Of a stretch of DNA of 64,000 nucleotides, positions 19,922-35,568 are shown in pieces. Source of the stretch: Candidatus Methanomethylophilaceae archaeon (GTDB lineage Archaea > Thermoplasmatota > Thermoplasmata > Methanomassiliicoccales > Methanomethylophilaceae); the NCBI GenBank assembly GCA_017524805.1, contig JAFXUX010000043.1, forward strand, positions 1 to 64,000, given 5' to 3'. Each line of letters opens with the position of its first letter. The first letter of the stretch is position 1. The translations under genes and the position numbers were made by a program. Below the pieces are notes generated by a model, which was not told the origin of the DNA, did not search any database, and saw only the letters and a program-made list of their open reading frames with translations.

Positions 19922-21327
19922 TCCAACAGCCCCTTCGCTTTGACATACGTCAGATACCCGTCCACCGGGTCGTTATAGCTATCGTTGTAATACTTCACGC
20001 CGACTATATCAGTGGGGTCGGCGGCCTCGAAGGATTCCGGATCCATTATCTTGGCCAGAAGCTCCAAGGATTCCGGGATCCTGGCCCCGGGCCTGGAAAG
20101 GAGACTGGCGGCGTCCCCGGAGAACACGTACACTTCCCCGCTCTCGAACGCTGGAGTCTGCTTCCACATATCGTTGAGGCCGGACAGAAGCGCCCTGTAT
20201 TCCCTTGGGGTGCTGATTTCTCCGGCATCGTAGATTATTATGATGATGTCGGGCTGCCTGTCGTAGACGGCCTCTCTGTCCACCATGAACCACGATTGGG
20301 TTCCATCCGCGAATATGTTCTCCGCGCCCAGCGACTCGATCATGTTGGTCACGTATGTGCCTGGGCCTGGCGTATATGGGGAATCGCTGATACCGAGCGA
20401 CAAGAACACCCTCTTGCCGCTGAGATCGGCGATCCTGCAGATGTTGTTGATCACTTCCTTGGCGTCTTTAATGTATGAATTCCCGTTCTCTGGGAATCCC
20501 AGTGCCGAAGCGCATACCCACAGGTTCATCATGAAATCGTTCAGGCTGTTCGCCGGATGCAGGACGACGCAATTGATCCCCGCTTTGCGGAGTTTGTCAG
20601 CCATCGTCACGTGCTCCCCGGTGCCCCCGTCCAGGAACACCAGGTCCGGCGATTCCGCCACGATCAGCTCGAAGTTGGGGTCGGTAAACCCTCCGACCAA
20701 ACGGACCTCTCCGCTGTTCTGGCGCTCCACCAAACGGTTGGGATAATCGCAATACCTATCGGTGGCGATTATGTTGTCCAGGCCCCCCACGGCGCAGACC
20801 GTCTCGGCAACGGACGGAGCCAAAGTCGCCACCCTCAGGTCCTCTCCGAAACGGTTCTTTCCTTCGGTGGCATAGCTGTAATAAGTGAACCCGGTGGCAT
20901 CGACGGCAGGCATCATCGCGCTGCCCTCGCCTGCCCGGGCCCACGAGATTATCTTCTGGCTTGAGACGTCGTATGATGAGGGATCTTCGACCTCTGCCCA
21001 ATGGGTATCCTTGCCGACACCCTCGAGGATGTACATCCCCCAGTCGACGTTGATCAGCTGGGGCACGTTCCCCACGGAATATACCGTGCCGTCCTCGTTG
21101 TACTCTATCCCGTAGCCCTTCTTGGAGCATGCCGATTCGAGCGCCCCCATGCCGGTCAGCCCATCCAGATCCAATTCTACCCATTCCACATTGTAATAGG
21201 CGAAATCAATCATCACGCCCTGCTTCTCGTCGGTCATGTCGACCGAGAAACCGATGAACGGTATCGATGCGAGGATCAGTGCGGCAATCGAGGCGGCGGT
21301 TGCCAGCTTTATAGAGGACGCTCTCAT
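19909..21327 (-). CDS. btuF: DUF4430-like domain fused to BtuF-type corrinoid-binding protein
   Basis: A 472-residue protein: N-terminal signal or membrane anchor (LATAASIAALILASIPFIGF), then a short DUF4430/transcobalamin-C-like domain (about 35-115, with WVELDLDGLTGMGALESAC and DWGMYILEGVGKDTHW), then a class III periplasmic-binding domain (Peripla_BP_2, about 165-450). The latter shows RVATLAPSVAETVCAVGGLD, SPDLVFLDGG, KRVFLSLG and QPDIIIIIYDAG. Such proteins hand corrinoids or iron chelates to BtuC-type permeases. The fusion places two corrinoid-binding folds in one chain. It overlaps the next gene by 13 bp, and the upstream gene ends 3 bp before its start. Confidence 0.8.
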   Translation of the reverse strand: MRASSIKLATAASIAALILASIPFIGFSVDMTDEKQGVMIDFAYYNVEWVELDLDGLTGMGALESACSKKGYGIEYNEDGTVYSVGNVPQLINVDWGMYILEGVGKDTHWAEVEDPSSYDVSSQKIISWARAGEGSAMMPAVDATGFTYYSYATEGKNRFGEDLRVATLAPSVAETVCAVGGLDNIIATDRYCDYPNRLVERQNSGEVRLVGGFTDPNFELIVAESPDLVFLDGGTGEHVTMADKLRKAGINCVVLHPANSLNDFMMNLWVCASALGFPENGNSYIKDAKEVINNICRIADLSGKRVFLSLGISDSPYTPGPGTYVTNMIESLGAENIFADGTQSWFMVDREAVYDRQPDIIIIIYDAGEISTPREYRALLSGLNDMWKQTPAFESGEVYVFSGDAASLLSRPGARIPESLELLAKIMDPESFEAADPTDIVGVKYYNDSYNDPVDGYLTYVKAKGLLEWQR

Positions 21328-21330
21328 GGC

Positions 21331-23016
21331 TCAGCCCTTTCTCTTCATCACGATGACGGCTATTATGGCAATGGCCACTATCGCGGCTATCGCTGCTCCC
21401 ACATAGAGCACCGTGTTGTCGGAGCCGCTCCCGGAATCCTCTCCGGTCGGAGGGATGTCCCTGCTTTCGGTCTCCCCGCATACGGAGCACGTGCGTGTCT
21501 CCGTGCCTTTGTCCTTCGAGGTGGGCTGCTTCGTGACCTTCCATTCGGACCATGAATGCCCGAGCGCGGGAATTGGCTCGGTTTTGACCTCACCGCAGGA
21601 GCAGGCGTACGTCTTCACGCCTTCCGAGACGCATGTCGCGGCCTTCGTTACGACTCCTTCGCCCCAGGAATGCTCATGCGCCAACGGGACCGCTTTGAAC
21701 ACGGGAGTCACGTCCATATCTGAAGTCACATGGGTCAGATCCGCGCTCCATCCTTCGAACTCGTATCTGAACTCGGAGGTCGGCGCTTTGTACGGGGTCG
21801 TCCCCTTGTATGTGGATGAAGAACCGCTGGCGACAGTCTCCGCATACAGGACGGCCGTCTTCGACTCGTCCCAATAGCGGACCATATACGAAGCGGCATC
21901 GATGAAATTGGCCGTGAAAGTCGTGTCGCGGACGATCGGGACGGTGGTGTCTCCCCATCCGGAGAATGTCTTGCCCTTGGGAGCCTCTGGCTCAGGAACG
22001 AGAGCCATATTCGGGGTCTCCCCATACTTCAGAACTTGGGTCGCTACTGCGGTCCCGTCGGGGAGTGCGAACGTCACGACGGGATGGTTGGAGATGCAGA
22101 TGACCTCTTCCTTATCCGGATTCGGGAGGTCCCCGCCCACGTCTATGATGTAATCGGTGCTGTAGGGATCCGGAGTGGATATCAGATAGATGCACATGAC
22201 ATACTTGTACACGGCAGGGTCATAGAATCCCAGAGTCCATTCGTTATAGCTCCAATCCCCTTCGACCCACGTCCACTGGCTCCAATAGTGCCATATGTCG
22301 TCGCTTCCTTCCTCGAGCTCGTCTCCGAGACCGAACATCGTCTTGATCCATCCCTGGATGTTGTTTCCGTTCTTGTCCTGGGTATAATTGAGCTCGACGT
22401 CGAATCCGTTCGACTTGATGGCATCGTCCAGCACTTCGGCCATGGTGGAACCGGTTCCCTTGAGCCAGAACCCTTCTTTTCTGACTTCAGATGTGAAAGC
22501 CTCGAGGACTTCGGGGATGGTCGGTATGAACCCGTTCGCGAACCTGAAGAATATGTATCCTTCGGATTCGGGCTTGAAATCCGGCGCCACATAGTCCTGA
22601 GACCCGTCGATGTTCACGCGCTCGCATATATGCAGGCAATACGAAGTCCCGGAAACCATCCCGTCAGACTTGTCCAAAGCCGTATGCTTCCAGCCCGAGG
22701 TTCCCAATGGAAGCCACTGGTGCACCCTCCAATATTTGTCGCTCTCAGGCTCCAGGCCGTCGACGGATCTCACTGCCGAGCCGTTGCTGACCAGCGCGAT
22801 GATCTTTCCTTGATCTGCCGCGGCGGCTTCTATGGCCTCTTTGACCGTGGAAACCCCTCCGACGACAGACATGTCGTATTCCCCGCTGGCGTTCTCGATG
22901 TATACCCTTATTTCGCTGTATGTGGCCGCAGAACTGTCATCCGACATAGACAATGTCGGCGCAAGGATTGCTGCCAACGCAACGGCAAAGAGAACGAATT
23001 TTCCGTAACGCATCAT
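21331..23016 (-). CDS. Membrane-anchored DUF4430-like surface protein with beta repeats
   Basis: A 561-residue first gene of the operon. Signal peptide (KFVLFAVALAAILAPTLS), a DUF4430/transcobalamin-C-like region at about 30-130 (TVKEAIEAAAADQGKIIALV), a second related segment at about 185-300 (MAEVLDDAIKSNGFDVELNY), two beta-repeat modules (about 325-440) and two copies of a C-x-C/C-x-x-C segment: TCVSEGVKTYACSCGE and TETRTCSVCGET. A C-terminal membrane helix (about 538-557) and KRKG follow. GGAGTG 6 nt before the double ATG supports the start. In Firmicutes, DUF4430 proteins occur with cobalamin uptake genes (family knowledge). A corrinoid-capturing surface role is inferred. Confidence 0.75.
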   Translation of the reverse strand: MMRYGKFVLFAVALAAILAPTLSMSDDSSAATYSEIRVYIENASGEYDMSVVGGVSTVKEAIEAAAADQGKIIALVSNGSAVRSVDGLEPESDKYWRVHQWLPLGTSGWKHTALDKSDGMVSGTSYCLHICERVNIDGSQDYVAPDFKPESEGYIFFRFANGFIPTIPEVLEAFTSEVRKEGFWLKGTGSTMAEVLDDAIKSNGFDVELNYTQDKNGNNIQGWIKTMFGLGDELEEGSDDIWHYWSQWTWVEGDWSYNEWTLGFYDPAVYKYVMCIYLISTPDPYSTDYIIDVGGDLPNPDKEEVICISNHPVVTFALPDGTAVATQVLKYGETPNMALVPEPEAPKGKTFSGWGDTTVPIVRDTTFTANFIDAASYMVRYWDESKTAVLYAETVASGSSSTYKGTTPYKAPTSEFRYEFEGWSADLTHVTSDMDVTPVFKAVPLAHEHSWGEGVVTKAATCVSEGVKTYACSCGEVKTEPIPALGHSWSEWKVTKQPTSKDKGTETRTCSVCGETESRDIPPTGEDSGSGSDNTVLYVGAAIAAIVAIAIIAVIVMKRKG

Positions 23017-23065
23017 ATCACTCCAAACGCGCGCTTGGATGGGAGCCGATCAAGGCTGGCCATCC

Positions 23066-23090
23066 GACTGGATGAATTGGGATTCCAGTC
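23066..23090. promoter_or_regulatory. Inverted repeat near the predicted transcription start of the corrinoid operon
   Basis: GACTGGA (23066-23072) and TCCAGTC (23084-23090) are exact reverse complements around 11 nt. It lies about 25-50 nt downstream of the TATA element at 23112-23121, so it sits at or just after the expected start of transcription. It could be an operator or a leader hairpin. Confidence 0.4.
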
Positions 23091-23103
23091 ATTAAGCTGT
23101 ATC

Positions 23104-23135
23104 ATCCATCCAATTATATCCTTAGAGGGATGGAT
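23104..23135 (-). promoter_or_regulatory. Promoter of the corrinoid operon with inverted repeat flanking the TATA box
   Basis: ATCCATCC (23104-23111) and GGATGGAT (23128-23135) are perfect reverse complements and bracket the minus-strand TATA-like GATATAATTGG (core 23112-23121). A dimeric repressor bound here would cover TBP/TFB sites. The leader to the first ATG is about 70 nt. Confidence 0.5.
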
Positions 23136-23369
23136 TTAGAGTTATATATTTTTCTTTGGGATGTGCTTCACGAAAAACATCTGGCCCCCGGATTGACTGG
23201 CTGCTGGCATCGCATAACGACGGAAATAGCGCCGATCGGATGTCTGGCCATCGCATGCACTTCCTGCTGGAAACACCGAAGTCGACCGCCCATCATCGCG
23301 GTTGTCAGCGATGAGGATGATAACCGCAGAATGAACGAGAATAGAAAACGCGATGGATAAGCACGAGAG

Positions 23370-23442
23370 TGGGCCCGCCCAGATTTGAACTGGAGTTACG
23401 TGCACCCCAAGCACGAAGGATACCAAGCTACCCCACGGGCCC
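23370..23442 (-). tRNA. tRNA-Pro (anticodon GGG)
   Basis: 73 nt on the minus strand. Acceptor stem GGGCCCG/CGGGCCC with discriminator A, anticodon stem CGTGC/GCACG around loop TTGGGGT (anticodon GGG, reads CCC/CCU), and T loop TTCAAAT. CCA is not encoded, as usual for many archaea. A TATA element lies 28 nt upstream. Confidence 0.95.
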
Positions 23443-23465
23443 ACAATGGCGTGATTAACTAATCG

Positions 23466-23474
23466 ATTATAAAG
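23466..23474 (-). promoter_or_regulatory. TATA box of tRNA-Pro
   Basis: CTTTATAAT on the minus strand, centred 28 nt before the tRNA 5' end. Confidence 0.65.
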
Positions 23475-23529
23475 ATTGCTATCGAGTCAGCGCCCAGAAA
23501 AACTGCGGGAAATAAAACTGAAAACAAAT

Positions 23530-23543
23530 GGGCCCGAAGGCCC
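23530..23543 (-). terminator. TTCG-loop hairpin after rpoN
   Basis: On the minus strand GGGCC-TTCG-GGCCC is followed by ATTTGTTTTCAGTTTT. It lies 39 nt past the rpoN stop. The stem, UUCG tetraloop and T-rich tail make a convincing terminator of the ribosomal protein operon. Confidence 0.65.
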
Positions 23544-23581
23544 GGTTTGAATCGCAGCGAATGATTCGCTGGCTTATGGAA

Positions 23582-23773
23582 TCATCCGAGGGGAGCGATC
23601 TCTCCGATCAGATCGGCATGCGCCACGATCATCCTGCGGCAGCAGTACCTCTCAAACCCCAGGTCGTCGAGGACCGTCTTAGGATCCTCTCCAAGCCCGA
23701 CGCGCCTTACGTATTCGGAATAGGCCGATCCGACGACCTTTCCGCACGTGAAACATCTAACCGGAATTATCAT
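23582..23773 (-). CDS. rpoN: RNA polymerase subunit Rpo10 (RpoN)
   Basis: A 63-residue protein matching archaeal/eukaryotic Rpb10: [18 protein letters not shown] with CxxC near residues 7-10, and [16 protein letters not shown] carrying the second cysteine pair and conserved CCRRM. It binds one zinc and helps anchor the Rpo3/Rpo11 assembly platform. Last gene of the rpl18e-rpl13-rps9-rpoN operon. The usual archaeal continuation (rpoK, enolase, rps2) is absent here and a terminator-like hairpin follows. Confidence 0.97.
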
Positions 23774-23782
23774 GAGACCACT

Positions 23783-24184
23783 TCAACGGTAGGACTTCTG
23801 CTTCTTGGCGCGGGCGCCAGGACCGAGGGGGTTCTTGGGAAGCTTGCGCCTGTCGTCATTGATGATGAGGGTCCTGTCGTATGTCCTGAAGACCGCTTCG
23901 AGCTCTTCGTCCTTGTAGAACTCGACGAGCCCTCTGGCGATGGCGGTCCTAGCGGCCGCGGCCTGGCCCATGACGCCTCCGCCGTTCACGAGGACGGCGA
24001 TGTCGACGTTCTGGGCTTTCTCGGGGACGAGCCCGAGAGGCTCCTCGATCTTGAGCTTCGCAAGCTCGGGCGTGAAGACTTCGATGGGAACCTTGTTGAT
24101 GGTGACCTTTCCGGTTCCGGCCTTCACAGTGGCCCTGGCAATTGCGGTCTTCCTCTTTCCGCTGGTGTTTACGCACTCAACCAT
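23783..24184 (-). CDS. rps9: Ribosomal protein uS9
   Basis: A 133-residue small-subunit protein with the S9 features GKRKTAIARATVKAGTGK near the N-terminus, GGGVMGQAAAARTAIARGLV in the middle and the basic C-terminal tail ending KKQKSYR, which reaches the P-site tRNA. Length is typical of archaeal S9. Separated from rpl13 by 4 bp. Confidence 0.97.
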   Translation of the reverse strand: MVECVNTSGKRKTAIARATVKAGTGKVTINKVPIEVFTPELAKLKIEEPLGLVPEKAQNVDIAVLVNGGGVMGQAAAARTAIARGLVEFYKDEELEAVFRTYDRTLIINDDRRKLPKNPLGPGARAKKQKSYR

Positions 24185-24188
24185 GAGA

Positions 24189-24614
24189 TCATCTCACATT
24201 GGAACCCAGGAATTTGGAAACGGCTCCCAGGGTAGTATATTTGCCGGTGATCTTCCTGCAGGCCTGCTCCGGTCTCTCTTTCTCGACATCCTCGAACTGC
24301 TTGGGGGTGCCGACGAAGACGTGAAGCCTCCTGTAAGCTTCCCTTCCGCTGGAGGAGTTCCAGGGGATCATGCCTCTGACGCATCTCTTGAAGAGAAGAT
24401 CCGCCCTGCGAGGATAGAATGGTCCTTTCCTCTTGGTAGTGTCTCCACGGTCGACTTTGGCTTTGAAGTCCCTGAAGACGTTCTCTTTGACGCCGGTGAT
24501 GACGATGGACTCCGCGTTGAGAACGACGATCTCCTCGCCGTCCATGATCCTCTCCGCTACGAGGCTGGCGAGCCTTCCGTGGATGAGGTTCCTTCCGTCG
24601 ATTACTGTTACCAT
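24189..24614 (-). CDS. rpl13: Ribosomal protein uL13
   Basis: A 141-residue large-subunit protein starting MVTVIDGRNLIHGRLASLVA, with the archaeal L13 core KRKGPFYPRRADLLFKRCVRG absent of insertions (quoted in part as RGMIPWNSSSGREAYRRLHV). The ATG at 24614 is preferred over an in-frame GTG at 24623 because GAGGTGA sits 5 nt before it. That Shine-Dalgarno sequence includes the TGA stop of rpl18e. Confidence 0.95.
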   Translation of the reverse strand: MVTVIDGRNLIHGRLASLVAERIMDGEEIVVLNAESIVITGVKENVFRDFKAKVDRGDTTKRKGPFYPRRADLLFKRCVRGMIPWNSSSGREAYRRLHVFVGTPKQFEDVEKERPEQACRKITGKYTTLGAVSKFLGSNVR

Positions 24615-24619
24615 CCAAA

Positions 24620-24979
24620 TCACCTCATAATCCTGACGCCAGTTCCCTTGGGGTTGGACTTTGCCAGTTCCTCGATGGTGAGCGTCTTTCCGCCTGCGGC
24701 GGCGATCGCTTTGGCTGCGGCTCCGGAGAAGCTGTATGCCGCCACGGTGACCTTCTTGCTGATGCTACCTGCTGCGAGAACTTTGCCGGGGACGACGATG
24801 GTCTCGCCGTCTTTGGCATACCTCTCGAGTTTGCTGAGATTCGCTTCGGCCCAGTTGCTTTTGGACTTTTCGAGCCTAAGCGCGATATCACGCCAGATAG
24901 CAGCGTCGTTCTCCCTAGTCATCGCCTTGAGGTTGTCGATGGTGGCGACGAGCTGGGGATTAGTCTTTCTGCTTGTCAT
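24620..24979 (-). CDS. rpl18e: Ribosomal protein eL18 (L18e)
   Basis: A 119-residue archaeal/eukaryotic large-subunit protein: RKTNPQLVATIDNLKAMTRE at the N-terminus, VVPGKVLAAGSISKKVTVAA in the middle and NPKGTGVRIMR at the end. First gene of the operon. GGGAGAG lies 10 nt before its ATG. Confidence 0.96.
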   Translation of the reverse strand: MTSRKTNPQLVATIDNLKAMTRENDAAIWRDIALRLEKSKSNWAEANLSKLERYAKDGETIVVPGKVLAAGSISKKVTVAAYSFSGAAAKAIAAAGGKTLTIEELAKSNPKGTGVRIMR

Positions 24980-25023
24980 ATTTCTGACTCTCCCAGTGTT
25001 GGTGAGCGGTCGTATACAGGGGT

Positions 25024-25040
25024 TACATTTAATATTAACT
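25024..25040 (-). promoter_or_regulatory. Promoter of the rpl18e operon
   Basis: TTAATATTAAATGTAA on the minus strand, 45-60 nt upstream of the rpl18e start, the only A/T-rich element in the gap. Confidence 0.5.
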
Positions 25041-25182
25041 ACATTGGGAAAAGCAGAAAGCCTTCAGAATGAACTTTTTCCGATGCCCTGAGCCGCGGGA
25101 GCCCGACGTTTAGATCGGCATATCCAGCCCCGGATGCTCCGCCCGATTCCCGTATGGGACGGGAAGTCCAACGTTTGGCGGC

Positions 25183-27555: not shown

Positions 27556-27768
27556 ATGGCAGGAACGAGGCTCCCCGACCATTCCCACTGCAAATACTGC
27601 GGCGAGCCCATCGAATTCGGGAAGGAATACTGCGGGGAGATCTGCGAGGAATCCTTCAGAGAGAGGGAGCGCGGCGACAGGAGAAAGGAAATCGCGTTCT
27701 ATGCCGCGGCCGCCGTATCCGTGATCGTCATACTAGCCGCCGGGTTTTTGCTGCGATCTGGATGGTGA
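27556..27768 (+). CDS. Small membrane Zn-ribbon protein (DUF2116-like)
   Basis: A 70-residue protein. Cysteines in HCKYCGEPIEF and EYCGEICEESF form a four-cysteine zinc ribbon (residues about 12-32). A basic linker and one C-terminal membrane helix (about 47-66) follow. Family members are archaeal proteins of unknown role. Its stop overlaps the first Sel1-type gene by 7 bp, so the two are probably co-translated and it may anchor the array's products to the membrane (inference). Confidence 0.75.
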   Translation: MAGTRLPDHSHCKYCGEPIEFGKEYCGEICEESFRERERGDRRKEIAFYAAAAVSVIVILAAGFLLRSGW

Positions 27769-28979
27769 TTATCTTGGACAGAAGGGGCACCATCGAACCG
27801 CTGTGGCGGAAAGAAGCCGAATTCGACGTGCTGTGCGCATCCGGAGTCAGCGAAGCGGCGCTGATCCTGGGGGAATGCGGATACAAAGTCGGAAACCTGC
27901 TGGGCATCTCATTCTCGGATGGCGACATATCTTTCCCGGAAAAACGCTCGGAATGGATAGCCATTGATGTCAGATCGATATCCGGCGACTATTTCGAGAT
28001 TGACCGCGGAGGCATCAAAGAGCACGTTCCCTGCGGTAGGTTCGGATTCGAAGAGCCTGACGGTTCCGTGGGCAGGATCGGGTTCAACAGCATCCCCGGC
28101 CTGGACAACCGTCTGGACCGCATCTGCCAGGCGATAAAACGCTCTTACGGAGAGAAGGCTGTCGCCATTGACCTGAGAGATCCGCTTTACTCCATCGGCA
28201 AAGATGGCGATGTAAAATACCTCGGAGATCCCGACGAGGATGCCATAGAGTCGGCGAACGAATGCCTGCTCGGATTCGTGGACAGCCTGGGATGTTTCTG
28301 CGTGCGCACCCCAACCAACATATTGGGCTCCGACTCAGGGAGATATGCCCCCGAATTCCTCGGATACGCGGAATCCTGCCTGGACGCTATGGTAGCCGGA
28401 GGCGAAGACGCGCGCAGACGGATGATAGAGCTGGGAATCTCTATCGGAATCAGGATGGACTGCATGCGCGGGGAAAGCTACGCATTCGATCAGGACGCGA
28501 TAAGACGTCTCGACAGGCAGTGGAACGCAAGCAACAAAAAAGATGGCGTCGACGGATTGATGAGCTCAGCCATGGCCAGATACAGGAATGCCAGAAGCGC
28601 CGAAGGCAGAGGAGAGCTTGAGCGCCGCATCGGATCCATCTGGAAGGACAGGAAGGACGGCAAAGCCGATATTTCGAAGGCCGCGGAATGGATGAGGAAA
28701 TCCGCGGGTTCCGGCATCCAAAGCGCCGAAAGCGATCTTTTGGACATACTGTGGAGAGAAGGCTCCGACGATTCCCTGCTGGAGATGGTCGCCTTGGCGC
28801 GCAGGATGACCGAAAGAGGGAACGCGAAAGCCATGCTGATCCTCGGAAGGGCATACCGCGACGGGAAAGGTCTCCCCCAAAGCAAAAGCAACGCAATCAG
28901 ATGGTTGTCGAAAGCCTCCGAGAAAATCAAACAGGCCGAGATCGAGCTAAAAGAGCTTGAAGGAAAGGCTGGAGGATGA
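27762..28979 (+). CDS. Type A Sel1-repeat paralogue 1 (A1)
   Basis: A 405-residue protein, first of six tandem paralogues. Residues about 20-210 form the conserved N-terminal domain: EFDVLCASG, WIAIDVRSISGDYFEID, HVPC, YGEKAVAIDLRDPLYSI, DSLGCFCVRTPTNI. This is a diverged form of the DUF6270-like domain seen in type B neighbours, lacking their GxCxSRDxFG and YGGKTHY motifs. Residues about 285-400 carry Sel1-like repeats (GSIWKDRKDGKADISKAAEW, GRAYRDGKGLPQ). There is no signal peptide or membrane helix, so it is cytoplasmic. Function unknown. The start overlaps the Zn-ribbon gene; GTG at 27765 is an alternative. Confidence 0.75.
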   Translation: MVIILDRRGTIEPLWRKEAEFDVLCASGVSEAALILGECGYKVGNLLGISFSDGDISFPEKRSEWIAIDVRSISGDYFEIDRGGIKEHVPCGRFGFEEPDGSVGRIGFNSIPGLDNRLDRICQAIKRSYGEKAVAIDLRDPLYSIGKDGDVKYLGDPDEDAIESANECLLGFVDSLGCFCVRTPTNILGSDSGRYAPEFLGYAESCLDAMVAGGEDARRRMIELGISIGIRMDCMRGESYAFDQDAIRRLDRQWNASNKKDGVDGLMSSAMARYRNARSAEGRGELERRIGSIWKDRKDGKADISKAAEWMRKSAGSGIQSAESDLLDILWREGSDDSLLEMVALARRMTERGNAKAMLILGRAYRDGKGLPQSKSNAIRWLSKASEKIKQAEIELKELEGKAGG

Positions 28980-28983
28980 TATC

Positions 28984-30138
28984 GTGGACGAGGATTACGA
29001 ATATTACGGCGAGAAATCCCAGGCCAAAAAGAAAACGGCCTCGTTCGACATACTGGGCGTGTGCGTTTCCCGCGACATTTTCGGCCTGGCCAACGGCAAC
29101 GAGTATGATGTCGGGAAATACACGAGATTGTCTCTCCCATACTATTCTGACATGGAGAATGTGGACCCTGAACTCTGGGCGACGATGGACGATGTCAAGG
29201 GCGAGAGGGATTTCCACAAACGGCTGAAGCTGGACGACCTCAACATGAGATACGCCGACGAACTGAACGGCTCCGGGTCGGAATGGCTGCTCATAGATAC
29301 CAGATCCCTCACATTCGGATACCACGAAGCCAAATTCGGCGGAAAGACCCATTACTATACCGCCGAGAGCATTTCCGCCGATGAGATCCGCGCGGCGACG
29401 AGGAAAAAAGGCTTCGAGCCGGAGAGCATCCGCTTCGTCGAGACGGAAGACGTCCCCGGGATCGAAGGGATGATGGACGCATTCTGCGAGTTCGTCAGGG
29501 GAAGATATGGGAACAACATCATATTTATTGAGATGAGGGACGCTCTCTGGCACGTCGACAAAGAAGGCAAAGTGGGCTACATCCGCGATTATCCAGTGGA
29601 AAGAAGGCGCAGAATCACCGGAAAATACTGCGAAGCGCTGATGAAAAAGCTTGGCTGCCGCTGCATCCCCATGCCGTCGAACATCATCTGCGACTACCTC
29701 CATTTATGGGGCATGTCCAAAGGCCATTACATCCAGGAGTACTACGATTACGCGTACAGATGCCTGGACGCCATCGTGAAAGGGGCTCCTGACCTTGACC
29801 TTCTTTTGGAAAGAGAATTCCTGAAGGTATGCGCCGCCATGGATTCCATACGCTCCGGCAGGATGCTGTCCAGGAACAACACCGTAAGACGCGCGGAAAA
29901 CCATTGGAAAACCTCTGACGACGCCGACGCCTCCATCTCGAACGCCCAGCTCCTTATGGCGGAAGCCAACAACCCGCTGCTGGAGTCGGAGCTGGCCGGT
30001 ATAGTGGGCAGGATATGGCGCGACAGGACGGACGGAAAAGCCGACATGAGGAAGGCATCCATGTGGCTGAAGACGGCATCGGACGGGGGCATAGTATGGG
30101 CTTCGAAAGAGCTGGAGGAGCTTGGGGAAGGCCAATGA
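28984..30138 (+). CDS. Type B DUF6270-like/Sel1-repeat paralogue 1 (B1)
   Basis: A 384-residue protein with GTG start. GGAGG ends 8 nt before the GTG, while an in-frame TTG at 28957 lacks such a site. N-terminal domain (about 20-250): FDILGVCVSRDIFG, GKYTRLSLPYY, RLKLDDL, EWLLIDTRSL, KFGGKTHYY, MRDALWHVDKEGKVGYI, LGCRCIPMPSNIICD, and WGMSKGHYIQEYYDYAY. These match my recollection of DUF6270 (GSCVSRD at the start, HY..EYY at the end), a family thought to have an SGNH-like fold. The C-terminus has Sel1-like helices (GRIWRDRTDGKADMRKA). It follows A1 by 4 bp. Enzymatic activity is plausible but unproven. Confidence 0.75.
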   Translation: MDEDYEYYGEKSQAKKKTASFDILGVCVSRDIFGLANGNEYDVGKYTRLSLPYYSDMENVDPELWATMDDVKGERDFHKRLKLDDLNMRYADELNGSGSEWLLIDTRSLTFGYHEAKFGGKTHYYTAESISADEIRAATRKKGFEPESIRFVETEDVPGIEGMMDAFCEFVRGRYGNNIIFIEMRDALWHVDKEGKVGYIRDYPVERRRRITGKYCEALMKKLGCRCIPMPSNIICDYLHLWGMSKGHYIQEYYDYAYRCLDAIVKGAPDLDLLLEREFLKVCAAMDSIRSGRMLSRNNTVRRAENHWKTSDDADASISNAQLLMAEANNPLLESELAGIVGRIWRDRTDGKADMRKASMWLKTASDGGIVWASKELEELGEGQ

Positions 30139-30219: not shown

Positions 30220-31401
30220 ATGGGCGGAAAGACTGACGGGAGAATCGTTTTCGATGTTCTGGGCGGGTGCCCCGACGGGGCGATGCTGGAGACGATGCTC
30301 ATCTGCGATTTTGGGATAGGGAACATCATAAGAGCCGAATTCGAAGCGGAGCCCATAACGCCGCCCGCGAACCCGTCGAGATGGCTGGCCATCGACATCA
30401 GATCCATCGCATGCGACCATTTCGAGGCGATCAGCGAGGACGAAGACGTGAGATACGTGCCGTGCACCGGATCGTCCGTGAGGGAGCTGAAGATGGGCGG
30501 AGCCAAATCGGTCCGCAGGATCGGGTTCGCCGACATCCCAGCCCTCGACGAATACGTCAAAGATCTCTCCTCAATCGCGCAAAAGTATGGGAAAAACGTC
30601 ATAGCCTTCGACCTGAGAGACCCGGCATGGATCTCCACCCCGGGAAGGAACGTGGTTCCCGCTGACGACCCGAATTCCGCGCGCAGGAATGAAGCCGAAG
30701 ACATGCTCTCCCTGATGCTGGTCGACTCCCTCGGATGCCATTGCATACGCACTCCCTCGAACATAGTCGGCCGCGGAAAAGACAGCGACGAGATGCCGCG
30801 CTACGGCGAGGGTTTCTACGCCTACGTCAAAGACTGCGTCAAAGTTATAGCGAGCAGAAAGCCGGAAGCCTCCAGAAAGCTCAGGACGCTGGGATTGGAG
30901 ATAGCCGACCACATGGACGCGGCCCGCAGAGCCCCGTTCCTGTCTTCGGTCTCATTCCTAGAGAGTATGGAAAAGGAAAAGGAAAGCATGGACGATTGGG
31001 ACGAGATCATCGGCATGCTCCGCAAAAAGATGGCCGTAGCCAAAAGCGAGATCCTCAAGGCAGAAATCGAGGGACGCATCGGAGCGGCATGGCGCGAGAG
31101 GGATGACGGCAAAGCGGACCTGAAGAAAGCCGTCCGCCTGCTCAGGAAATCCGCCGACTCCGGATCGATATGGGCGAGAAGGGAGCTGCTATCCGCGCTG
31201 TGGGCGGAAGGTTCCCCCAACTCCCTGCTGGAGATGGTGTCCAGAGCGTATAACTATTCCATAGAGGGGGACAAAGACGCGATGGAATTCCTCGGCTGGG
31301 CATACGAAGAGGGCGTGGGGCTGCCCAAGAACGCCGCTGAATCGAGGAGATGGCTCGCCAAAGCGGAACGGAAGACCGAAACCATATCGCTGTCGGAGTG
31401 A
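30220..31401 (+). CDS. Type A Sel1-repeat paralogue 2 (A2)
   Basis: A 393-residue protein with AGGAGG (30208-30213) 6 nt before its ATG. Same plan as A1: VFDVLGGCPDGAMLETML, WLAIDIRSIACDHFEAI, YVPC, YGKNVIAFDLRDPAWIS, DSLGCHCIRTPSNIVG, then Sel1-like repeats (GAAWRERDDGKADLKKAVRL, LGWAYEEGVGLPKNAAES). Cytoplasmic; no catalytic motif recognised. It precedes B2 by 5 bp, repeating the A-B pairing. Perhaps a non-catalytic partner of the following type B protein (inference). Confidence 0.75.
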   Translation: MGGKTDGRIVFDVLGGCPDGAMLETMLICDFGIGNIIRAEFEAEPITPPANPSRWLAIDIRSIACDHFEAISEDEDVRYVPCTGSSVRELKMGGAKSVRRIGFADIPALDEYVKDLSSIAQKYGKNVIAFDLRDPAWISTPGRNVVPADDPNSARRNEAEDMLSLMLVDSLGCHCIRTPSNIVGRGKDSDEMPRYGEGFYAYVKDCVKVIASRKPEASRKLRTLGLEIADHMDAARRAPFLSSVSFLESMEKEKESMDDWDEIIGMLRKKMAVAKSEILKAEIEGRIGAAWRERDDGKADLKKAVRLLRKSADSGSIWARRELLSALWAEGSPNSLLEMVSRAYNYSIEGDKDAMEFLGWAYEEGVGLPKNAAESRRWLAKAERKTETISLSE

Positions 31402-31406
31402 CTGCC

Positions 31407-33005
31407 ATGACCGATGACATCTCCAAAGGTCCGGCCGTGCCGGAAAGGAAACCGCCATTCGACGTGCTGGGCGTATGCATAGGGCGCGACGTGTTCGGAG
31501 TGGCCAACTGCAACGAATATGAGATAAGGAAATACACCCGCCCATCGCTCCCCAGCTTCGCGGACGACGAGCGCGTAAAAGAGAGCGAGCGCCTGGGAGA
31601 CGACGACGTCAAAGGCAAGACCAGATATCTCCGCCGCCGCAAGCTGGACGACCTCAACAGAACTTGCGAGGAAGGCCTCTGGGAATCCGGTTCCGAATGG
31701 CTTCTTCTGGAGATCAGAACTGTCTCCTACGAATACTGGGAGGCCAGATACGGCGGGAAAACGCACTATTTCCTAGGAAACACCACTACCGAGGAGGAGA
31801 TGCGCAAGGCCGTCGAAAAGAGGGGCTTGGAATTGGAGTCTCTCCGCAAAGTCAAGATCGATGACATCCCGGGGACATCGGAGATGGTGGATGCCGCCTG
31901 CGATTTCATAAGGAAGAGATACGGAAACAACGTGATCCTCCTCCAACAGAAGGAGGCCCTATGGCGCATGGACCGCTTCGGGAACGTGGCCCTGAACCGC
32001 ACCTTGGAAGCGGAATCGATGAACAGCACCATCGACAAGTTCACAAGGATGATCCTCAGAAACCTCGGCTGCCATTTCATCCGCATACCTTCCGACATCA
32101 TAAGCGATGCCTGGCAGAGGTGGGGAGATACGCCCGCCCACTACATCCAAGAATACTACGATTACGCTTATGCGTGCGTAGACGACATCGTTAGCGGGAT
32201 CCCCAATCTGGATAGGTCGCTGGAACGCAGGTTCATGGAATTCAGCGCCCAACTGAACGCGATACGCTCCGGGAAGATGCTGTCGAGAAAGAACGCCGTC
32301 AGCCGTGTGTCCGATCTTATGGAAAGAAGGGGCAACGCGGACCTCTGCATAAAAACAGCGACTCACCTCAGAAAAAGAGCCAACAGCCCTATGCTGGAAG
32401 CGGAGCTCGACGGCGCCATAGGAAAGCTGTGGCGCGACAGGGCTGATGGGAAGGCAGACCCGGAAAAGGCGATGGCTCTCATGAAATCGTCCGCGGAAAG
32501 CGGGATAGAATGGGCGCAGACCGAATATCTGGGCATGCTGAGAGCATCCGGGAACTATGAAGAGACTCTGGAGGCTGCCATAAGGTATGCTTCCCTAGGC
32601 AACGGCGAGGCCATCGGGTTCGTCGGGAGGGCCTACAAGAACGGCGAAGGCGTCGGCAAGGACAAGGCGATTGCTGAGAAGTGGCTGGAAGAGGCGTCCG
32701 TCAGGGACGTGAAATGGGCCGTCCTGGAGTACATGCAGCTCCTTTGGGAAGAGGACGCCGACATACTCGTCGAGAAAGCCCAGAGATTCGCGAACCACAG
32801 CGGAATCGCAATGGGATACCTCGGCAGGGCATACCGCTACGGCAAAGGCACGAAGAAAGACCTGGCCAAGGCGAGGGAATGCCTGTCTAAGGCAGCGGAG
32901 ATGAAAGTTCCTTGGGCCGAGAGAGAGCTGAGAAGTCTGGATGCGAATATGGCGAAAGCGCAGGAAACCAAGAGCAAACGCAGGGATGGAACGGGCGGGA
33001 AATGA
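31407..33005 (+). CDS. Type B DUF6270-like/Sel1-repeat paralogue 2 (B2)
   Basis: A 532-residue protein, the longest of the six. The ATG at 31407 is chosen; the frame is open upstream but inside A2. N-terminal domain as in B1: FDVLGVCIGRDVFG, RKYTRPSLPSF, RRKLDDLN, EWLLLEIRTVSYEYWEARYG, GGKTHYFLG, LGCHFIRIPSDIISDAWQRW, PAHYIQEYYDYAYACVDDIV. The C-terminal half (about 310-515) has more Sel1-like repeats than its paralogues, including GRAYKNGEGVGKDKAIAEKW and GRAYRYGKGTKKDLAKAREC. Its stop overlaps the A3 ATG (ATGA, 33002-33005). Confidence 0.75.
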   Translation: MTDDISKGPAVPERKPPFDVLGVCIGRDVFGVANCNEYEIRKYTRPSLPSFADDERVKESERLGDDDVKGKTRYLRRRKLDDLNRTCEEGLWESGSEWLLLEIRTVSYEYWEARYGGKTHYFLGNTTTEEEMRKAVEKRGLELESLRKVKIDDIPGTSEMVDAACDFIRKRYGNNVILLQQKEALWRMDRFGNVALNRTLEAESMNSTIDKFTRMILRNLGCHFIRIPSDIISDAWQRWGDTPAHYIQEYYDYAYACVDDIVSGIPNLDRSLERRFMEFSAQLNAIRSGKMLSRKNAVSRVSDLMERRGNADLCIKTATHLRKRANSPMLEAELDGAIGKLWRDRADGKADPEKAMALMKSSAESGIEWAQTEYLGMLRASGNYEETLEAAIRYASLGNGEAIGFVGRAYKNGEGVGKDKAIAEKWLEEASVRDVKWAVLEYMQLLWEEDADILVEKAQRFANHSGIAMGYLGRAYRYGKGTKKDLAKARECLSKAAEMKVPWAERELRSLDANMAKAQETKSKRRDGTGGK

Positions 33006-34225
33006 GCGCGAAGAAAGGCTTGCCGAAATAGATCTGGATTGACGTACTGGGGGGAGAGCCCGACGGGATAACCCTGGAAACGCTCTGCAGAAGCGGGTTC
33101 GGCGTCAAGAATTTCATAAAGGTCTCGTTGGACGGCGGAAGCAGGAAAGTCAAAGCCGATATCCCGAAGAAGAAATCAAAATGGATTGCGATCGACGTAA
33201 GGTCGCTTTCGTCCAATTGGTTCGCTGTCGACGAAGAACCTACCGTATACGTGCCTTGCGCCGGCGGATTCAGATCCGAGCTGAGGCAGAAGAATGACGA
33301 TAAACCGTTCCGCATAGCCGCGTTCTACGGCATGGAAGACTCCGATGCTTTCCTCGATTCCCTTGCCGATCTCATCGAAGAGCAGTACGGGAGCAATGCC
33401 GTGCTGCTCGACATCAGAGACGCATACTGGACCTAGACCATCGGGGCCAACGTCGTATATTATGATAACAGGGAGCAGACCCGCATGTCCCTGTCGGGGA
33501 ATGCGGTAGCCCTGAGATTGGAAGGCAGATTGGGATGCTTCTACGTCCGCACGCCGACGAACGTCATCGACTGCCCGATCAGAAGAAGCACATCGCATTA
33601 CCCTGCCGCCGTCTACGACTATATCAGCGCATGCCTGAGGGCCGTCATCGATGGTAAGGAGGACACAAGAGCCAAGATCAATGATCTGAGCATCGAAATC
33701 GCCAATAACATGGACATCCTCCGCAGCGACCCATACCTAAGGGCGCTGAACATACTGGGCGAAATAGATTCCATGGGCATGGACAATCCCGAAGAGGTTC
33801 TGGCGGTCATCGATGACTGGATGAAGATCGCGAGGAACGAAACGTTGGTATCAAGGCTGAAAGGATTCGAGGCGAGAGTTTGGCGCGACAGAGCCGATGG
33901 CAACGCCGATCTGGCGAAAGCTACGGGACTGATGCGCATATCCGCGGATTCAGGGACAAAATGGGCAAAAAATGAGCTTCTCGGCTTGCTCTGGGAGATC
34001 GATACCCCCGAATCGCTGCTGGAGATGGTCTCCCGCGCATTCGCCGATTCCCAAGAGGGGAGTTCGACGGCCAAAGGCTGCATCGGATAGGCCTACAGGG
34101 ATGGAAGGGGATTGCCCAAAAACGAGGCGAAATCCGCCGAATGGCTCCTCATGTGCAAAAAGGCGGAAGCGAAAGAGGCAAAGGTCAAATCGGAAGAAGA
34201 AGAGAGGGAGGAAGGGGAATCGTGA
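33002..34225 (+). CDS. Type A paralogue 3 (A3) with three in-frame TAG codons; candidate pyrrolysine protein
   Basis: One uninterrupted frame of 407 codons ending in TGA, the same length as A1 (405) and A2 (393), with TAG at codons 10 (33029-33031), 145 (33434-33436) and 363 (34088-34090). Between them every type A block is kept: WIDVLGGEPDGITLETL, WIAIDVRSLSSNWFAVD, YVPCAGG, YGSNAVLLDIRDAYW, GRLGCFYVRTPTNVID, ARVWRDRADGNADLAKA, then AYRDGRGLPKNEAKSAEWLL. No frameshift or deletion is seen. ATGA coupling to B2 and GTGA coupling to B3 are intact. Aligned paralogues have R, S and R/W at the three sites. No intact gene in this window ends in TAG. Either three pyrrolysines are inserted or this is a pseudogene. 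The ATG at 33485 gives only a fragment. Confidence 0.6.
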
Positions 34226-35568
34226 GCGGGACTGATGATACCCACCAGCATCCGGAGGCTCTGGCGACGATCGACATCATGGGAGTGTGCGTCAGCCGCG
34301 ATGTCTTCGGCCTCAAGGATGACCGCGAATTCCTGATCGGAAAATACGTAAGGCTGTCGATGCCCTATTTCCTGGACGAAGAAGAATTGGACGAGGACAA
34401 GCTTGCCACCGAGAGCATGCTGACCGGCAAGAAATTCATAAAGCGCTTGAAGCTGGATGAACTCAACAAAAGATACAGGTACCTCAAAACTTCCGGCTCG
34501 GATTGGGTTCTGATCGACCTCAGGGCGCTTTCGTACGGATTGTACGCGGTTAATTACGGAGGCGAGACCCACTACATCATGAAGGAAAGGCTGACCCAGC
34601 AGGAGATCTGCTCGGCCATAGAGAAAAGGGGCTATGCCGTGGAATCTATCGAAGAGATGGAATTCGAGGATGCCCCCAATCTCAATGAGATGATAGATGC
34701 CACGTGCGATTTCGTCAAAAAGAGATACGGCGACAAGATAATCCTCCTCGAAATCAGAGATGGCATCCTTAGGATGGACAGAGCTGGCAGGACTGCGCCC
34801 ATGCAGAGAGAGATAATCGAGAACAGGCGCAGGGAGATAGAAAGATACACGCTGTTATTCAAGGAAAAGCTGGGATGCCGCTGCATACGCATGCCCGCCG
34901 AGAACATCTGCGACGGCGCCCACAAGTGGGGCTACAACCCTGCGCATTTCGTCCAAGAGTACTACGACTATGCCTTCGCATGCATCGAGGACATAGTCAA
35001 AGGAGTCCCGGACCTCGACAGAGCGCTGGACAGAAGATACATGGAATTCTGCGCCCAATTGGACGCGATGCGGATCGGCGCCATGGTCTCCAGGAACAAT
35101 GGGGTCAAGCGCGTGAAAAGAAATCTCGTAACCAAGAAGTACGATGCGGCGCTCGAATTGGCATCGACGCTCAAAAACAAGGCCAACAACCCGGCGCTTG
35201 AATACGAACTGGAAGGCATGATCGGACGGATATGGTTCGAAAGGGAAGACGGCAATGCCGATGCGGAGGAAGCCGAGGCCCATATGAGAGAGGCGGCAAA
35301 GGGAGGCATATCCTGGTGCGAGACCTATCTCCTCCGCATCCTCATAGACAAGGGCGAATTGGATGAGATGGCCGAGAAAGCCGAGGAATACGCGATGAAA
35401 GGCAACTGCGAAGCCATGGGATACCTTGGAAGGGCTTACCGCGACGGGCTGGGCGTGGATAAAGACCTGGACAAAGCGAAAGAGTGGATGAAAAAATCTG
35501 CAATAAGAAGAGTCAAATGGGCCAAAAAAGAATATGCCAAGCTCATCGAGGCCGATCCAACTTCCTGA
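34222..35568 (+). CDS. Type B DUF6270-like/Sel1-repeat paralogue 3 (B3)
   Basis: A 448-residue protein with GTG start at 34222 overlapping the A3 stop (GTGA) and preceded by GGGAGG (34206-34211). The frame is open upstream to 34141 but inside A3. Domains: IDIMGVCVSRDVFGLKDDRE, GKYVRLSMPYF, RLKLDELN, DWVLIDLRALSYG, YGGETHYIM, EIRDGILRMDRAGR, LGCRCIRMPAENICDGAHKW and PAHFVQEYYDYAFACIEDIV, then Sel1-like repeats (GRIWFEREDGNADAEEAEAH, GRAYRDGLGVDKDLDKAKEW). Last gene of the array. Its 3' end overlaps the convergent folP gene by 26 bp. Confidence 0.75.
   Translation: MSGTDDTHQHPEALATIDIMGVCVSRDVFGLKDDREFLIGKYVRLSMPYFLDEEELDEDKLATESMLTGKKFIKRLKLDELNKRYRYLKTSGSDWVLIDLRALSYGLYAVNYGGETHYIMKERLTQQEICSAIEKRGYAVESIEEMEFEDAPNLNEMIDATCDFVKKRYGDKIILLEIRDGILRMDRAGRTAPMQREIIENRRREIERYTLLFKEKLGCRCIRMPAENICDGAHKWGYNPAHFVQEYYDYAFACIEDIVKGVPDLDRALDRRYMEFCAQLDAMRIGAMVSRNNGVKRVKRNLVTKKYDAALELASTLKNKANNPALEYELEGMIGRIWFEREDGNADAEEAEAHMREAAKGGISWCETYLLRILIDKGELDEMAEKAEEYAMKGNCEAMGYLGRAYRDGLGVDKDLDKAKEWMKKSAIRRVKWAKKEYAKLIEADPTS

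Follow-up and report, generated by a model that had tools for sequence, protein, structure and literature searches.

A Sel1-type archaeal gene with three in-frame UAG codons that probably specify pyrrolysine

Is a gene interrupted by three in-frame TAG codons, in an archaeon equipped for pyrrolysine (Pyl), a dead gene or one that is translated from end to end? The question is posed by A3, a Sel1-type gene within a three-fold A-B cluster (A1-B1-A2-B2-A3-B3) of a Candidatus Methanomethylophilaceae archaeon. The window, meaning the whole stretch of 64,000 nucleotides that was analysed, belongs to contig C43 (JAFXUX010000043.1) of a 1.95-Mb draft genome in 47 contigs that is 98% complete. A first-pass annotation had described A3 as a frame of 407 codons in which codons 10, 145 and 363 are TAG, with overlaps tying its start to B2 and its stop to B3. 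Both descriptions hold: each overlap is 4 nt long (ATGA and GTGA), the likeliest B3 start being GTG 34222, and a scan of the frame found no TAA or TGA inside it and no frameshift (Table 1). The accompanying claim that A3 and its paralogues share the same length without indels was only partly correct, as A1, A2 and A3 run to 405, 393 and 407 codons and their alignment contains several gaps, all of them in frame. Likewise, the residues aligned with the TAGs do differ among themselves, but at the first two codons they are more varied than originally named: codon 10 aligns with E/R/K/K, codon 145 with I/S/M/A and codon 363 with R/W, the last encoded in the paralogues by AGG (R) or by TGG (W), which is one step from TAG.

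Table 1. Positions of the cluster genes and A3 features (window coordinates) and of TAG-bearing Sel1 genes in other records
Feature	Position	Strand	Remarks
A1	27762..28979	+	paralogue without TAG; orthologue in genome G012 at 66% identity
B1	28957..30138	+	DUF6270 protein
A2	30220..31401	+	closest A3 paralogue, without TAG; 36% to A3 (tool alignment)
B2	31407..33005	+	DUF6270 + Sel1 protein; putative start
A3	33002..34225	+	Sel1-type, read through three TAGs; ATG at 33002, TGA at 34223-34225; from frame reading, structure model and fold matches
B2 stop/A3 start overlap	33002..33005	+	ATGA
A3 TAG, codon 10	33029..33031	+	low-confidence N-terminus, just before first predicted strand (12-17)
A3 TAG, codon 145	33434..33436	+	end of short strand/loop in model
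A3 TAG, codon 363	34088..34090	+	inside Sel1 helix 355-367
A3 stop/B3 start overlap	34222..34225	+	GTGA; B3 start putative
B3	34222..35568	+	DUF6270 + Sel1 protein; putative GTG start
C33 DUF6270-Sel1 gene	L049 11503-13722	-	one TAG
C33-gene orthologue	L050 8777-10996
C33-gene orthologue	L046 8217-10493
C33-gene orthologue	L081 1453-3702
C38 Sel1 gene	L044 6513-9071; L045 10069-12774		TAG in two species

As the Pyl reading of A3 supposes, the source genome carries a complete pylTSBCD cassette. On contig C25 a tRNA-Pyl with the anticodon CUA is followed by pylS (of the C-terminal type), pylB, pylC and pylD, the last two assigned by their position in the cassette and by sequence rather than by family search. 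A search of the genome for the N-terminal domain of PylS gave no match, as expected for this order, whose PylS is not known to carry that domain. MtmB and MtbB (PF05369 and PF09505) adjoin the cassette and each spans one TAG over its full Pfam model, which makes the two genes a positive control, within the genome of A3, for the decoding of TAG as Pyl. In these enzymes Pyl is catalytic and conserved, a role that probably distinguishes them from A3.

Given that few genes end in TAG and that those which do so frequently continue beyond it, TAG is mostly a sense codon in this genome. Gene calling by codon usage in a 539-kb sample, or 28% of the genome, returned 472 genes, of which 400 end in TGA, 53 in TAA and 19 in TAG. 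Coding sequence ran on for at least 30 codons past the stop in 12 of the 19 TAG-ended genes (two of the 12 being pieces of A3) versus 35 of the 453 that end in TAA or TGA (Fisher p 7e-9), and the latter continuations mostly resemble a following gene that has a start of its own. Real TAG stops account for about 1% of genes in the sample; in Candidatus Methanomethylophilus alvus the figure is 1.6% (PMC4153887). Among the genes that contain TAG are those for MtmB, MtbB, a TetR regulator, a methyltransferase-domain protein, a PHP-domain protein, a LicD-Sel1 protein (to which relatives can be aligned only beyond the TAG) and two Sel1 proteins. Sel1 genes contain TAG in about 4 of 15 cases versus 8 of 457 other genes (p 3e-4), a comparison that is indicative only, as the Sel1 genes were counted by hand. 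Within the matches to A3 and to two further Sel1-containing genes, on contigs C33 and C38, genus and family searches revealed in-frame stops that are all TAG, never TAA or TGA. The use of TAG as a general Pyl sense codon is a feature that the A3 genome has in common with the archaeal code that Kivenson et al. reportedly described in Science in 2025, in which all TAG codons mean Pyl, in other lineages.

The DUF6270-Sel1 gene on C33 makes a stronger case for Pyl than A3 does. Its only TAG is codon 487 (of 739), and in four of four species, at 43-69% protein identity, the TAG occupies the same alignment column, within ARYGL[CA]-O at the Sel1 tyrosine position. The orthologues come from separately assembled MAGs (named Methanomethylophilaceae, Methanomassiliicoccaceae and Thermoplasmata), among which one has a sheep rumen origin, so that the window most probably stems from a gut member of the Methanomethylophilaceae; pylS was found in all four genomes that have the gene. 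Sequence downstream of the TAG is under purifying selection, with dN/dS of 0.32 before the TAG and 0.21 after it in the closest pair (the genome of the window, G000, and G012). By a rough Jukes-Cantor estimate, the chance that a free codon would stay unchanged in all four genes is about 0.002-0.02, a figure that is indicative only, the site having been picked post hoc. The structure model of a C33 orthologue is of low confidence in its first half. In the C38 Sel1 gene, TAG is present in two species at 88% identity, and at the same position four other homologues have GAC, CAG, TAC and TAC (Asp, Gln, Tyr) in frames that stay open; because it alternates with sense codons, the C38 TAG behaves like a missense change. 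Elsewhere, Sel1/DUF6270-type frames with several TAGs occur in genome G020 (three in L047 6710-9604, two in L043 3165-5159), and a Sel1 gene with a TAG (L048 888-2636) occurs in G013, a MAG that is 82% complete and has no pylS above the cut-off, probably because that sequence is absent from the assembly.

As to what the A3 protein would be, its sequence falls below the Pfam cut-offs for both PF08238 (Sel1) and PF19786 (DUF6270), and the Pfam comparison found no domain. Its structure model (mean pLDDT 80) comprises an N-terminal alpha/beta domain at about 1-183 and a helical Sel1-like part at about 202-405, and the best fold matches are Sel1 structures (4bwr, 8sxq, 6deh), so that A3 resembles Sel1-repeat proteins in modelled fold while failing their Pfam model. 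B1-B3, unlike A3, pass the DUF6270 cut-off. In alignment, the A-type genes lack the GVCxxRD motif present in the DUF6270 B type, and A is therefore taken as a non-catalytic partner of B; A3 is probably a helical-repeat partner of the co-encoded B-type DUF6270 proteins, as judged from gene pairing only. The three Pyl sites fall in an N-terminal tail, in a loop and at a place in a Sel1 helix where the residue varies; such positions are permissive, and Pyl is probably tolerated there as a replacement rather than catalytic or required.

The history of the cluster bears on whether A3 is alive. In the tree A3 stands beside A2, and their split predates the G000-G012 divergence, which makes the A3-B3 pair old; G012 has probably lost it. 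The distance of A3 from A1 does not exceed that of A2 (dN 0.74 vs 0.76), and its branch from the common A2/A3 node is about 1.3 times as long as that of A2 (1.13 vs 0.85), which hints at mild relaxation. At the corresponding locus of G012 (window 32930-35408) the A3-B3 pair is absent and the end of B2 is apparently joined to the end of B3, in what looks like a deletion between Sel1 repeats. Further upstream, window 21239-25043 is 98% identical to G012 C37:1-3805, with only 78-86% identity downstream of it, reflecting either recent exchange or an unusually conserved block.

It is likely, in our judgement, that A3, within its three-fold A-B cluster, is an intact Sel1-type gene of an archaeon whose UAG means Pyl, with Pyl at three sites that probably tolerate it and a partner role with the B type. 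Ribosomes leaving B2 would start A3 at the overlapping ATG, tRNA-Pyl(CUA) would insert Pyl at all three codons, and translation would end at the TGA that overlaps the B3 start. From the anatomy of the gene, the pyl cassette, the rarity of TAG stops and the conserved TAGs in related Sel1 genes, all of them observed, we infer that A3 is translated full length and carries Pyl. The original proposal of a Pyl protein thereby gains good though indirect support, coming from the cassette, from TAG as a mostly sense codon and from related genes that keep their TAG. A3 itself has no orthologue among 102 genomes of the family or in a genome contig collection, a near-identity search of plasmids gave no match, and the dS of A3 to A1 and A2 is saturated, so that the dN/dS comparison once proposed for A3 is uninformative.

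Counting against this reading is the strong excess of three TAGs in one gene over the genome rate: with about 13 internal TAGs in 158,000 sampled codons, three in a gene of the length of A3 have a P of about 6e-6 per gene. That excess is what would be expected if A3 had recently died and its TAGs were nonsense mutations partly masked by suppression, with other damage yet to appear. The mildly long branch speaks for such a death, as does the absence of the A3-B3 pair from G012, from which it follows that the pair is dispensable at the genus level. Even so, a recent pseudogene fits poorly and is unlikely. The initial argument that three TAGs of three stops are improbable by chance is weak when taken alone (P = 0.07-0.10), TAG representing 41-46% of the one-step nonsense mutations of the A3 sequence; joined with the lack of TAA, TGA and frameshifts, it strengthens to about 0.002 or less under assumed indel rates. 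No more than about 1.8% of simulated neutral-decay runs yield three TAGs without TAA or TGA, and the decay needed, 40-80 substitutions, would usually be accompanied by indels. Furthermore, A3 shows no acceleration relative to A1 and has preserved its overlaps at both ends.

A live gene might also use UAG as a switch between termination and Pyl insertion, such that full-length A3 and the coupled B3 would be made only when Pyl is plentiful, during methylamine use. The supply of Pyl does depend on the pyl genes, and termination at codon 10 would silence the whole A3 product together with the coupled B3 start, but the rarity of real TAG stops suggests the constitutive, efficient reading of UAG that has been argued for Candidatus M. 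alvus (PMC4153887), and a switch is accordingly quite improbable. Least probable are sequencing or assembly errors, to which a draft of 47 contigs might be prone, since three independent errors, each yielding TAG in one open frame, are improbable, and TAGs of related genes reappear at one codon across records that were assembled separately.

The intact-gene reading of A3 places it among proteins already predicted for the order. The first-pass annotation had taken a Pyl protein of the Sel1 type to be without precedent, and in this it was mistaken: the 16 predicted Pyl proteins of Candidatus M. alvus outside the methylamine methyltransferases, published in 2014, include a 389-aa Sel-1 protein, AGI86303.1 (PMC4153887, Table 7), which can be likened to A3 by description only, and ISO4-H5 has 46 genes with an in-frame amber codon (PMC5011839). 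Both genomes belong to the same order as that of A3 and resemble it in a complete pyl cassette, in the scarcity of TAG stops and in genes that are intact except for an in-frame TAG. A3 thus adds to the Sel1/Pyl proteins of the order, and differs from those predictions in its three TAGs, an unusual number of Pyl sites. The earlier predictions were, moreover, made per genome, whereas the TAG site of the C33 gene is conserved in four species and does not appear to be described in PMC4153887 or PMC5011839.

If this interpretation is true, standard pipelines mis-annotate such genomes wherever TAG falls within genes, and the Sel1 repeat set of gut Methanomassiliicoccales, regarded as adhesion factors (PMC7883539), is under-counted or split. 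These genes also offer a test of drift versus use for Pyl outside the methyltransferases, with C33 kept in four species, C38 flipping among Pyl, Tyr, Gln and Asp, and A3 having three sites. That Pyl is functionally required in the Sel1/DUF6270 family of gut Methanomethylophilaceae, the C33 UAG being selected to stay Pyl and the A3 family using Pyl repeatedly outside the methylamine methyltransferases, is a tentative and rather doubtful proposition. More modestly, a TAG kept in four species suggests that Pyl may matter outside the methylamine enzymes.
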